Positions 1,204 through 23,893 of a stretch of 64,000 nucleotides of DNA are shown here, piece after piece; position 1 is the first letter of the stretch; every line of letters starts with the position of its first letter. The stretch is from Corallococcus sp. NCRR (GTDB lineage: Bacteria; Myxococcota; Myxococcia; Myxococcales; Myxococcaceae). The DNA lies in assembly GCF_026965535.1 (NCBI RefSeq), contig NZ_CP114039.1:6200001-6264000 (forward strand), read 5' to 3'. The notes under the pieces are model-generated. The model was given only the letters and a program-made list of their open reading frames with translations. It was not told the origin of the DNA and made no database searches. The position numbers were made by a program, and so were the translations under genes.

Positions 1204-7296
<6,093 letters not shown>

Positions 7297-7547
7297 CAAT
7301 CGCACTCGTTAACACACGCAAAACGGGGCCGGGCGGAGCCTGTCTCGCGAAGGTTGGCCCCTCGACGTGGGCCCCGGAAGGCGACCGGCCAGACCCCTCC
7401 TCGGAGAGGCTGCCCGCATGCCCGCCGTCAGGACGGGCGGACGTCCGCCGCCCCCGCCGGCTACAGCGGGGGGCCCGTTGCCTTGGGCGCTCCCTGGGGC
7501 TTGCTGGCGTACATCCGCGGAGCGTTTTCAAGCGTTCCCTCTCCGGC

Positions 7548-20245: not shown

Positions 20246-21586
20246 CTAGAGTCGCTGGCCTTCGAAAGGCAGCGTCAGGTGGTAGCCGTAACGCCCGCGT
20301 CGCACGAGCAACAGCACGCTACGTCCCCGTCGCGCCGTCAGCAGGGCTTCACGGAAAGTGTCACCCGTGGGGACAGGCTGATTGTTCATCCGCAGCAGCA
20401 CGTCCCCCGGCTCCAGCCCGATCTCCGAGGCGGCCGAGCCCGGACGCACGGACGCGATCGCCATCCCGCCCTTGCTCTCCTTCACGCGCAGTCCCAGCTT
20501 CTCCCACGCCAGGTTCTCAAGCAGGCGAGCCGGAAATTCGATGGGCGTCACCTGCACCGTGCGGTTGCCGCCTGCTCGGAAGAGGACCAGGGGGAAGACC
20601 GAGCGGGCCGGATAACCGCGCACGCGCGAGTCGAAATCCTCCGCGTCCTGGATCCGCGAACCGCCCAGCTCCGCGACCACGTCACCGCGCTGCACACCGG
20701 CCTGCGCGGCGGGGCTGTCCGGATCCACGTTGGTCACGATGACGCCGTACGTGCGGTCCCACCCGAGCCGCGCGGCCACCTGCGAGGGCAGGTCCGCCGT
20801 GTCCATGCCCACCCACGCGGGGCGCACCTTCCCGAAGCGCGTGAGCTCCTCCACGATGCGCCGCACCTTGTCCGCGGGGATGGCGAAGCCGATGCCCTGC
20901 CCGTTGGCGTAGATGGCCGTGTTGATGCCGATGATCTCCCCGTCCACGTTGAGCAGCGGCCCGCCGGAGTTGCCCGGATTGATGGCCGCGTCCGTCTGGA
21001 GGAAGTCGTTGTAGACGCGGTCGTCCGCGCGGAAGGTGCGGCCCGTGGCGGACACCACGCCCGCCGTGACGGTCTTGCTCAGGCCGAACGGACTGCCGAT
21101 GGCGACCACCGTCTCGCCAATCATCAGGTCGCTGCTGGTGCCCAGCTTCGCGGTGGGCAGGGGCTCCTTCGCGTTGACCTTGAGGACCGCCAGGTCGTTG
21201 TTCGCGTCACTGCCCACCACCTCCGCGTCGAAGGTGCGCCCGTCGGCGAGCACCACGTGGATGGCGGACGCGCCCCGGATGACGTGGTCGTTCGTCACGA
21301 TGATGCCGGACGGGTCGATGATGGCGCCGCTGCCCAGGCCGGTGATGCGCTGGCGCGTCTCCGGCTGCGCCATCCCCTGACCGAAGAACTCCTCCAGCGG
21401 CGAGCGGGGCCGGCCCCGGAAGCGCGACTCCACCTCCTGTTCGGTGCCGATGTAGACGACCGCCGGGGAGACCTTCTGAACCACCTCCACCACGTCGCTG
21501 CGGCGCCGGGACAGGTCCGCGTGCGCCGGGAGCGCCAGCACGAGCCCCCACAGCAAGAGCCCCCACCGGATGTGTGCTGCCCTCAT
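20246..21586 (-). CDS. HtrA/DegP-type periplasmic serine protease with two PDZ domains
   Basis: 446 residues with a Sec signal peptide ending A-L-P-A-H-A. The trypsin-like domain has the full triad: His ~101 in T-N-D-H-V, Asp ~131 in N-N-D-L-A-V-L, Ser ~207 in G-N-S-G-G-P-L-L. Two PDZ domains follow (~265-350 and ~360-445), as in DegP/DegQ. Start supported by GGAGGAAGG. Acts in periplasmic quality control by degrading misfolded envelope proteins. It lies directly upstream of the pseudokinase in the same direction, 53 bp apart, so the two may share a transcript. Confidence 0.95.
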   Translation of the reverse strand: MRAAHIRWGLLLWGLVLALPAHADLSRRRSDVVEVVQKVSPAVVYIGTEQEVESRFRGRPRSPLEEFFGQGMAQPETRQRITGLGSGAIIDPSGIIVTNDHVIRGASAIHVVLADGRTFDAEVVGSDANNDLAVLKVNAKEPLPTAKLGTSSDLMIGETVVAIGSPFGLSKTVTAGVVSATGRTFRADDRVYNDFLQTDAAINPGNSGGPLLNVDGEIIGINTAIYANGQGIGFAIPADKVRRIVEELTRFGKVRPAWVGMDTADLPSQVAARLGWDRTYGVIVTNVDPDSPAAQAGVQRGDVVAELGGSRIQDAEDFDSRVRGYPARSVFPLVLFRAGGNRTVQVTPIEFPARLLENLAWEKLGLRVKESKGGMAIASVRPGSAASEIGLEPGDVLLRMNNQPVPTGDTFREALLTARRGRSVLLLVRRGRYGYHLTLPFEGQRL

Positions 21587-21843
21587 GCCTTCCTCCGTAC
21601 GCCGCCGGGAATTGTCTCCCGGAAGACAGTCTGAATGTCGGGAAGGCCTCAGCCATTCCCTGGGTGTCTGGAAGCGGCGTCCCGCTCTTCATAGACCAGA
21701 TGGTGCGGCCGTGATCGAACGCACTTTCAGGCAGAACGTCCTTGCCCTGGGCCGATTGCGGCGTTGGGGGAGCAGGGGCCGCCCTGGGAGTCCCGGCGCG
21801 GCGTGTCGCTGGCTGCCCGCGGGGGCCTTGGGAGTGGTTGCGC

Positions 21844-22851
21844 ATGAGTCTCGTCCTGGTCGCGGATGACGAACCCGCCGTGCTGGAAGTCCTGAGCCAG
21901 GTGATTGAGGACCTGGGGCACGACGTGGTGCGCGCGAGGGATGGCGAGGAGGCCCTGGCGCTCGCCCGCGCCCACCGTCCGCGGCTGGTGGTGACGGACC
22001 ACATGATGCCGCGCATGAGCGGCATGGAGCTGTGCAGCCGGCTGAAGCAGGAGCCGGGCCTGCGCGAGGTGCCCATCATCCTCTTGAGCGCCGTGCTCCA
22101 GCAGGGCTCTCCGGACGCGGCCGCGTTCCTCAACAAGCCCTTTGAGATCACCGACTTCGAGGCGCTGGTCCACGACGTGCTGGCGAAGGCCCCCGCCGCG
22201 CCCCCGGAGCCCGCCACGCCCGTGGAGGCGCTGAGCCGGTGGGTGGCGCAGTCGCTCCAGGGGCCGCTGGAGGCCGCGAAGCACGAGCTGCGCGCGCTTC
22301 GGGACCTGCCGCCGCCGGGCAGGGGCGCGGTGGAGGCGCTGGGCGCGCAGCTCCAGTCGCTGGAGCGCATGGGCCGCTACCTCCAGGACGCCGCCCGGCT
22401 GAGCGCGGGCAGCGTGACGTTGCGGCCGGTGGAGGGCGACCTGCGCCAGCCGCTGGAGGCCTCTCTCGCGCGGTGCCGCACCCTGGGGCCCGGCGTGCCG
22501 GTGGAGGTGACGGTGCCCCCGGAGGCGGTGGGCCTGAGGTTCGACCCGGAGCGGCTGGAGCAGGTGTTCGACGTGCTCCTGTCGAACGCGGCCCGGCAGG
22601 GCGGGGTGCGCGTGGAGCTCCAGTCGTCCGCGGAGCAGGTGCTGGTGCGCGTGAGCGACCCGGGGCCGGGCATCCCCGAAGCGGAGCTGCCCCGGCTGTT
22701 CCAGCCCTTCCCGGAGGGCCCCGCGCGCGAAGAGGCGCTGGGGCTCTACGTGGCCTCGGAGCTGGCGAAGCTACATGGCGGCGCGCTCTCCGCCGAGTCG
22801 CGCCCCGGGCAGGGCGCGACGTTCAGCGTGTCGCTGCCGCGCGTGGCCTGA
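21844..22851 (+). CDS. Response regulator fused to a histidine-kinase-like ATPase lacking the phosphoacceptor His
   Basis: 335 residues. Residues 1-115 are a receiver with D8/D9, phospho-Asp 52 (V-V-T-D-H-M-M-P) and Lys 98 (L-N-K-P-F). Residues ~125-195 resemble a HisKA helix pair, but the H-box position reads V-A-Q-S-L-Q-G-P-L, so the usual His is Gln ~136. Residues ~220-335 are an HATPase_c domain with an N-box (V-L-L-S-N-A-A), G1 (S-D-P-G-P-G-I-P) and a shortened G2 (A-L-G-L-Y-V-A). A non-phosphorylating output or docking role is inferred. GGGAGTGG precedes ATG 21844. Divergent from HtrA. Confidence 0.88.
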   Translation: MSLVLVADDEPAVLEVLSQVIEDLGHDVVRARDGEEALALARAHRPRLVVTDHMMPRMSGMELCSRLKQEPGLREVPIILLSAVLQQGSPDAAAFLNKPFEITDFEALVHDVLAKAPAAPPEPATPVEALSRWVAQSLQGPLEAAKHELRALRDLPPPGRGAVEALGAQLQSLERMGRYLQDAARLSAGSVTLRPVEGDLRQPLEASLARCRTLGPGVPVEVTVPPEAVGLRFDPERLEQVFDVLLSNAARQGGVRVELQSSAEQVLVRVSDPGPGIPEAELPRLFQPFPEGPAREEALGLYVASELAKLHGGALSAESRPGQGATFSVSLPRVA

Positions 22852-22855
22852 CGCC

Positions 22856-23893
22856 TCAGGCCTTCTGCGACTTCAGCATCCAGCCGATCATCTTGTAGAG
22901 CAGGCGGGCGCCCACGTTGGCGTCCCACTCGCTGCCCTCCGGGTCGGGGGCCACTTCGGTGAGGTCGAAGCCGACGATGGTGCGGCCCGAGCGCACGACG
23001 CCCGCGACGAGCGCGGTGGCCTCCGGGAAGGACAGGCCGCCGGGAACCGGGGTGCCGGTGTGCGGGCACAGCACGGGGTCCAGGCCGTCGATGTCGAAGG
23101 ACAGGTAGACCTGCTGCGGCAGCTTGTCGACGATCTGCTTCACCTGCTGGTTCCAGGGCAGACCGTCGAAGCGGTTCTGCTGGAGGACGGCGTCGTAGAA
23201 CGCGTGGATGCGGCCGCCGGAGTCCTCGATGTAGCGGTGCTCGTTCTCGCTCATGTCGCGCAGGCCCACCTGGACCAGCGTCTTCACGCCCGGGATGCGC
23301 TCGCACACGTTGTAGAAGATGGACGCGTGCGACCAGGTGAAGCCCTCGTACGCGACGCGCAGGTCGGCGTGCGCGTCCAGGTGCAGCACGCCCATGCCGG
23401 GGTACTTCTCCGCGTGGGCCTGGATGATGCCGAAGGAAATGGCGTGGTCTCCGCCCACGGCGGCCACGAGCTTGCCCTGCTCCAGCCACTGCTTCGCGGT
23501 GCGGTAGACGTGCTCGTTGAGCTTCTCGCTGAAGCCGTTCACGTCCTTCGCCGCGGCGAGCAGCTCGTCCTCGCCGGACTCGATGCCGCCCGCTTCGATG
23601 ACGAGCTGGGCGCGCTCCTTGGCGCGCTCGTTCCACATGTGCAGGTCGGCGGGGGCCTCCAGCATGGCGATGCCGCGCTCGTAGGGCCGGCCGGTCTCCA
23701 CGTCGAACAGGTCCACCTGCTTGCTGGCCTCCAGCAGTGCCGCGGGGCCGTCGGACGTGCCTCCGCCGTAGCTGGTGGTGGCCTCGAAGGGCACGGGGAT
23801 GACGACGACGTGGGCCTCGTCGGGAGAGTGGGGGAGGCCGAAGATGCCGGAGCCCGGCTGCGCGGCGGCGGCGGGGTCGAAGTGGGTAGCCAT
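22856..23893 (-). CDS. speB: Agmatinase/ureohydrolase (SpeB family)
   Basis: 345 residues from ATG 23893. The Mn-binding motifs of the arginase/agmatinase family are all present: V-G-G-D-H-A-I-S-F, H-L-D-A-H-A-D-L-R and S-F-D-I-D-G-L-D-P. The family hydrolyses guanidino compounds to urea; agmatine to putrescine is the likeliest reaction, but guanidinobutyrase or formiminoglutamase activity cannot be excluded. Convergent with the receiver/ATPase gene, only 4 bp apart. Much of the open frame upstream of 23893 is non-coding shadow. Confidence 0.88.
   Translation of the reverse strand: MATHFDPAAAAQPGSGIFGLPHSPDEAHVVVIPVPFEATTSYGGGTSDGPAALLEASKQVDLFDVETGRPYERGIAMLEAPADLHMWNERAKERAQLVIEAGGIESGEDELLAAAKDVNGFSEKLNEHVYRTAKQWLEQGKLVAAVGGDHAISFGIIQAHAEKYPGMGVLHLDAHADLRVAYEGFTWSHASIFYNVCERIPGVKTLVQVGLRDMSENEHRYIEDSGGRIHAFYDAVLQQNRFDGLPWNQQVKQIVDKLPQQVYLSFDIDGLDPVLCPHTGTPVPGGLSFPEATALVAGVVRSGRTIVGFDLTEVAPDPEGSEWDANVGARLLYKMIGWMLKSQKA

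Follow-up and report, generated by a model that had tools for sequence, protein, structure and literature searches.

Within the window analysed here, a 64,000-nucleotide stretch of the Corallococcus sp. NCRR genome (contig NZ_CP114039.1, positions 6,200,001 to 6,264,000), a forward-strand gene encodes a receiver followed by a kinase-like helix pair (DHp) and an ATPase (CA) domain, and is flanked by two conserved genes (Table 1). Its ATG at 21844 has GGGAG just before it; a longer frame starting with TTG at 21742 is also mechanically possible, but conservation among aligned relatives begins only at the ATG. Pfam searches placed Response_reg at residues 4-107 (E 8.4e-21, above the cut-off) and HATPase_c at residues 234-333 (E 3.7e-22), with HisKA absent among the five families matching at E up to 1; none of the best 25 of 133 NCBIfam matches reached its cut-off. 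The predicted structure had a mean pLDDT of 86.1 and a pTM of 0.60, so the domains are to be trusted more than their mutual placement. Foldseek, run on the whole model, returned LvrB of Leptospira (PDB 8vc9) as the top match (E 6.8e-18), and Pfam, the model and Foldseek all gave the order receiver-DHp-CA, bearing out the receiver-first layout proposed in a preliminary description of this DNA.

Table 1. Features of the receiver-kinase locus, in coordinates of the window.
Feature	Coordinates	Strand	Basis
Divergent gene, presumably an HtrA-like protease; conserved neighbour	20246..21586	-	Upstream in 63/63 orthologue loci
Whole gene: receiver, kinase-like helix pair, HATPase; 335 aa	21844..22851	+	ORF
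Receiver domain, residues 2-115; phosphoacceptor D52 at 21997-21999	21847..22188	+	Pfam, key residues, model
Pro/Ala-rich linker, residues 116-125, non-helical in the model	22189..22218	+	Model
DHp-like helix 1, residues 126-152, broken at 138	22219..22299	+	Model
Gln136 codon (CAG), phospho-histidine position	22249..22251	+	Alignment
DHp-like helix 2, residues 159-187	22318..22404	+	Model
Stretch whose counterpart is missing in nine Myxococcus-code orthologues, residues about 176-302 (approximate)	22369..22749	+	Codon count against L035/L037
GHKL/HATPase domain with degenerate N and G2 boxes, residues 196-332	22429..22839	+	Pfam, residues, model
Convergent gene, presumably agmatinase-like; conserved neighbour	22856..23893	-	Downstream in 56/63 loci, within the flanks fetched

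Orthologues were sought in 145 genomes of the order at a threshold of 1e-50. Matches were obtained in 64, one of which (G115) matched only through a paralogue, leaving 63 orthologue-bearing genomes; one copy was read per genome, 54 full-length and nine short, and the frame is open in all 63. The eight copies that could be named belong to Corallococcus, Myxococcus, Hyalangium and Archangium. The two neighbours, which from their sequences we take to be an HtrA-like protease and an agmatinase-like protein, define a conserved gene slot. In 1.5 to 4 kb of flanking sequence, or as much as the contig allowed, the agmatinase-like gene was missed at seven loci (L019, L031, L038, L039, L065, L066 and L067). 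One record carrying the gene and its neighbours in the form of the Myxococcus genus code (L112) is titled Comamonas sp. KCTC 72670, a name that is probably wrong. In the intergenic region between the HtrA-like and receiver genes (window 21587-21843), a TGTCGGGAA block is present in eight of nine aligned sequences across genera, the ninth having TGTTGGGAA in its place; the block may serve the HtrA-like gene as a promoter or operator.

Among the 82 genomes without an orthologue, the slot was examined in 21, some of which did not have both neighbours on one contig, and a His-bearing ancestor still residing there was not found. The gene is absent from G108 and G115 (Myxococcus code) and from G081, where the HtrA-agmatinase gap is 37, 110 and 87 bp, respectively, and the sole match to the window protein in the stretches from these genomes was a 33% receiver elsewhere in L184. 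Since these genomes are nested in gene-bearing genera, loss is likelier than never having had the gene. In G092, G122 and G123 the HtrA and agmatinase genes adjoin, and in G084, G087, G088 and G090 a secreted-looking frame of roughly 220-240 aa lies between them, without a tblastn match to the window protein. In loci L180-L183, from four other genus codes, such a frame of roughly 220-240 aa, starting like a signal peptide, takes the place of the receiver gene.

The nearest paralogue in the same genome (C1:9216091-9217164, L002) shares 45% identity and the same domain order with the window protein, but differs in retaining the H-box His, Glu and Thr together with the scored ATP-box residues, as do all 27 paralogue copies read (H-box HE(L/I)KTP). 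Alignment of the window H-box, VAQSLQGPL, with the paralogue VAHELKTPL places Gln136 in the His position, confirming the earlier proposal that the phosphoacceptor has been replaced by Gln. The expectation of a fixed His-to-Gln change fared less well across orthologues: 62 of 63 do not have His, but Gln occupies the site in only 28, the others having Arg (26), Lys (3), Glu (3), Ala (1), Asn (1) or His (1). This distribution rules out a recent mutation of one species. Not one of the 63 orthologues keeps the Glu that comes after His in a working H-box, and the Asn/Thr preceding the H-box Pro has also been lost. The only orthologue with His, L038, carries it in the context VGHALQGPL; because this His has no acidic neighbour and the sister copy of L038 has Gln at the site, it is likely a chance return.

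We also looked for another conserved His at residues 126-187. None was found, the commonest occurring in 11 of the 63 orthologues, and the loss of the phosphoacceptor thus withstands the objection that a different His of the helix pair might serve. The sequence HELRAL at residues 147-152 of the window protein resembles an H-box, but H147 is unique to it, and we reject an alternative phosphoacceptor His.

Own-genome outgroups L003, L005, L007 and L010 all have His, as do all ten of 14 distant relatives in which our pattern found the motif. A 50-row tree was built from 28 of the 54 full-length orthologues, five of the nine short ones, 14 of the 27 paralogues and three outgroups (L003, L005 and L007); L010 entered only another tree, which also took 14 of the 27 paralogues, and L093 was dropped before counting as a duplicate of L002. 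The orthologues form one group (92/74) and the paralogues another (97/95), with the deepest orthologue, L072, on a long branch. On this tree the His/non-His character needs two changes, and the letter at site 136 at least 11 (47 of its 50 rows); the simplest history has a single loss of the catalytic His, on the stem leading to the orthologue lineage. The paralogue is absent, at E 1e-48 and with draft genomes included, from 18 of the 63 orthologue-bearing genomes, and we therefore reject an obligate partnership with it as a rule.

The two halves of the protein have had different histories. Receiver residues D8, D9, D52, S82 and K98 are invariant in all 63 orthologues and the domain qualifies as a receiver (PF00072), supporting a domain that would be fit to be phosphorylated. 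The most conserved helix is alpha 1, the usual phosphodonor face of a receiver, with a commonest-residue fraction of 0.98 in orthologues versus 0.78 in paralogues; beta 1 reached 0.99 versus 0.86. Apart from these two elements and from beta 5 and alpha 5, receiver conservation was no higher than in the paralogues, being about equal for beta 2, alpha 2, alpha 3 and beta 4. Of the 45 species with both genes, we compared 24, namely those with the paralogue sequence in hand, minus G096 and G102, whose orthologues are truncated. Over their 276 non-independent pairs, mean pairwise identity (orthologue versus paralogue) was 0.82 versus 0.74 in the receiver, 0.60 versus 0.84 in DHp helix 1, 0.51 versus 0.75 in DHp helix 2 and 0.59 versus 0.70 in CA. 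Across ten disjoint species pairs, the orthologue receiver was slower in eight (one-sided p 0.055) and the orthologue DHp faster in eight (one-sided p 0.055), and CA was faster in only six (p 0.38).

Omega was estimated by a simple counting method on GC-rich codons, so that only relative values are meaningful, for pairs from chosen close clades, leaving out those with a synonymous difference of 0 or of at least 0.6; the tail of one truncated pair gave no value. In five full-length orthologue clades, omega was 0.02-0.16 for the receiver, 0.26-0.60 for DHp and 0.25-0.65 for CA, compared with 0.14-0.27, 0.12-0.28 (helices) and 0.28-0.37, respectively, in three paralogue sets. In no clade that yielded a value did CA omega reach 1, and because the Corallococcus values (0.25-0.30) are close to those of the paralogues, this domain may still matter in Corallococcus. 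From these comparisons, constraint is relaxed in the helix pair and less clearly in the ATPase; neither evolves neutrally.

The preliminary description held that receiver and HATPase motifs remain. This applies to the receiver and only in part to the ATPase: the window protein retains N248, D272, G274, G276, F286 and G300, but the first N-box Asn is replaced by Val244 and the G2 box, REEALGL, carries E296 and A298 at positions normally taken by Gly. Among the 54 full-length orthologues, the first N-box Asn is kept in one, the second in 39 and the G1 Asp in 52. An unbroken G2 glycine triad is seen in 14 of the 54, compared with 27 of 27 paralogues, which also keep the five core ATP residues; all seven scored ATP-box positions survive in only five orthologues.

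Decay has gone furthest in the nine short orthologues, from M. eversor, another Myxococcus and seven genomes assigned to Myxococcus only by genus code (g19). These share an in-frame loss of 126 codons at the same place, counted against sister copies L035/L037 as a reduction from 133 to seven codons between QL and VA(S/T)EL, which removes most of the ATPase, including the N, G1 and F boxes, and joins DHp helix 2 to the last ATPase helix. They form one clade (support 100; 100/99 for the five included in the 50-row tree), occupy the same gene slot as the full-length forms and encode proteins of 208-211 aa in open frames under purifying selection (overall omega 0.12-0.30). In the model of the 211-aa M. 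eversor copy (mean pLDDT 76.1, mostly 66-80 in the helices), a receiver is followed by a helical hairpin and a disordered tail. The W.A..LQGPL..A...L helix persists in this clade.

In domain order and length class, the window protein matches LvrB, described as the prototype Rec-controlled histidine kinase, in which receiver phosphorylation frees the catalytic domain (PMC13269768). According to the same source, LvrB keeps His161 and is an active kinase; the window protein has lost its His, the 63 orthologues hold a single one between them, and its ATP-binding boxes are incomplete. LvrB is also described as having a coiled-coil signalling helix between receiver and DHp. The linker of the window protein is Pro-rich and non-helical in the model, which may mark a difference; at least two Pro lie between L113 and W133 in all 63 orthologues, but also in 25 of the 27 His-bearing paralogues. 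DivL of Caulobacter (PDB 4q20) shares with the window protein a kept kinase fold with a replaced phospho-His, the pseudo-histidine kinase type. To our knowledge, DivL has no receiver of its own. It is described as having PAS domains and a Tyr at the site (PMC4211667), which in the window family varies among seven residues; in this family the ATPase is also being lost. We read the window protein as an LvrB-type Rec-controlled kinase turned pseudokinase.

The best explanation, which we hold to be probable, is that the kinase became a pseudokinase that kept its receiver input and works as a response regulator charged by another kinase. The ancestor would have been a receiver-DHp-CA histidine kinase of LvrB layout, whose family duplicated, with a His-bearing sister copy retained elsewhere in many genomes. 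The catalytic His would then have been lost and the helix pair drifted, while selection preserved the receiver, above all beta 1 and alpha 1, which would normally meet a phosphodonor. D52 would be phosphorylated by another kinase or phosphotransfer protein, the resulting change of receiver shape may alter dimerisation or a protein contact of the helical hairpin, and the ATPase may be a vestige, dispensable in at least one lineage. Because the input is under strong selection, no phosphoacceptor is left and the ATP site is impaired or absent, we infer phosphorylation in trans, the borrowed hairpin as output and a separate protein as partner. Retention of the orthologue where the paralogue is missing speaks for this explanation; CA omega below 1, the weaker contrast across the ten pairs, the five orthologues with all ATP boxes, the limited excess of receiver conservation, the long branch of L072 and the orthologue support of 92/74 count against it. 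A precedent for the output is the M. xanthus single-domain response regulator EpsW, whose phosphorylated receiver is described as acting by direct protein contact (PMC12802240); by analogy, the short clade suggests an EpsW-like output, with the difference that the receiver of the window family is joined to a dimer-type helical hairpin and, for most species, also to a degenerate ATPase. A further-reaching version is put forward tentatively, at rather less than even chances: a stepwise series in which a kinase was turned back into a response regulator, the His being lost, receiver and hairpin kept as a phosphorylation-controlled dimer switch and most of the ATPase dropped in one clade, after which the gene may vanish. 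The receiver-plus-hairpin of the M. eversor group would then be a new type of receiver output, derived from the dimerisation helices of a kinase.

Alternatively, as in DivL or RetS, the working output could be the kinase half rather than the receiver alone: pairing with a genuine histidine kinase, or docking on it or on a phosphorylated regulator, it would tune that partner up or down, with the receiver setting the timing. DivL, which lacks the His, has been described as sensing DivK~P (PMC4211667). Its structure is the best match for the DHp-CA half of the window protein (4q20_B, Z 22.3, 215 aligned, rmsd 4.8), although RetS (6dk7_C, Z 21.4) and ordinary kinases (20-21) are nearly tied, and the kinase half remains under purifying selection. 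A docking role is possible, but compared with the His-bearing paralogue conservation has fallen most in the helix pair, through which docking usually takes place, nine orthologues have dispensed with most of CA and the protein shows no tie to a paralogue so often missing; we regard this alternative as unlikely.

The preliminary description suggested an ATP-binding switch or a docking protein, controlled through phosphorylation of the receiver. In the switch, the HATPase domain would bind nucleotide but transfer no phosphate, under the control of the receiver. N248, D272, G274, G276 and G300 are indeed all present in 29 of the 54 full-length orthologues, the window protein among them, and the low CA omega of Corallococcus is in keeping with it. 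As a family-wide mechanism, however, it is not borne out and seems unlikely from sequence, given the near-universal loss of the first N-box Asn, the broken G2 triads, including that of the window protein itself, and the nine orthologues with the domain mostly deleted; overall, we judge this switch very improbable, although ATP binding may persist in Corallococcus itself. Were the protein a pure phosphate sink, its receiver would do no more than take phosphoryl groups off a kinase that also serves a real regulator. This would account for a receiver that is intact and strongly conserved, donor face included, and for the want of a catalytic output; in M. xanthus, DifD together with the DifG phosphatase is a described example (PMC12802240). 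Such a sink leaves unexplained both the W.A..LQGPL..A...L helix in the short clade and the continued selection on the kinase half, and is very improbable. A still active kinase with another phosphoacceptor, or a pseudogene, is largely refuted: the H-box-like HELRAL is confined to the window protein, the His of L038 is not followed by Glu and is accompanied by a broken G1 box, and the open frames and omega below 1 reject a pseudogene.

His-less HisKA domains are described as making up about 0.9% of those sampled (722 of 76,471; PMC12632262). Having no HisKA match at E up to 1, the window protein might escape such a HisKA-based count. In its own genome, 12 of the best 150 of 171 HATPase_c candidates had no HisKA match upstream (HisKA list: best 150 of 179 candidates). 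Seven of the 12 are stretches of 399-420 nt that presumably belong to CheA, and the remainder comprise the window protein and four others that were read, of which L192 and L195 have an H-box His, L193 has none and L194 is ambiguous; the window protein is thus not unique in its genome. L193 (C1:9618777-9619118, +) is a HATPase protein with an apparent receiver-like stretch upstream, no H-box His (AADLATQMDQLG) and N, G1 and G2 boxes that look largely intact. At L196/L197 (C1:8305567, 8304666), a kinase keeps the H-box SHDLRGSL and has apparently lost its ATP boxes, and the short receiver protein beside it is the one most like the window receiver (44%). The giant hybrid kinase noted earlier is indeed present in the window (1204-7305, -). 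This 2033-aa protein has several H-boxes and receivers and is encoded about 14.5 kb from the receiver gene; no link to the window receiver protein was seen.

Our literature search, which covered mostly openly accessible work, recognised no paper on the window gene or on a His-less receiver-first myxobacterial kinase. M. xanthus/M. fulvus pairs of altered length are tabulated in PMC4603909 by locus tags, none of which we could match to the window gene, and the pseudokinases in the available text of PMC6791715 are Ser/Thr kinases. In the papers covered, very few His-less HisKA domains have been assigned a function.

Pseudo-histidine kinases such as DivL are already known, and what is new is the stepwise series; it is this comparative series, rather than any uniqueness of the window protein, that is of interest. 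A domain-based name of "histidine kinase" for the orthologue group would mislead. The successive states occur side by side among present-day species, all in one conserved gene slot, and the His-bearing sister copy provides a control, thereby making it testable which half of a receiver-kinase fusion signals after catalysis has been lost.
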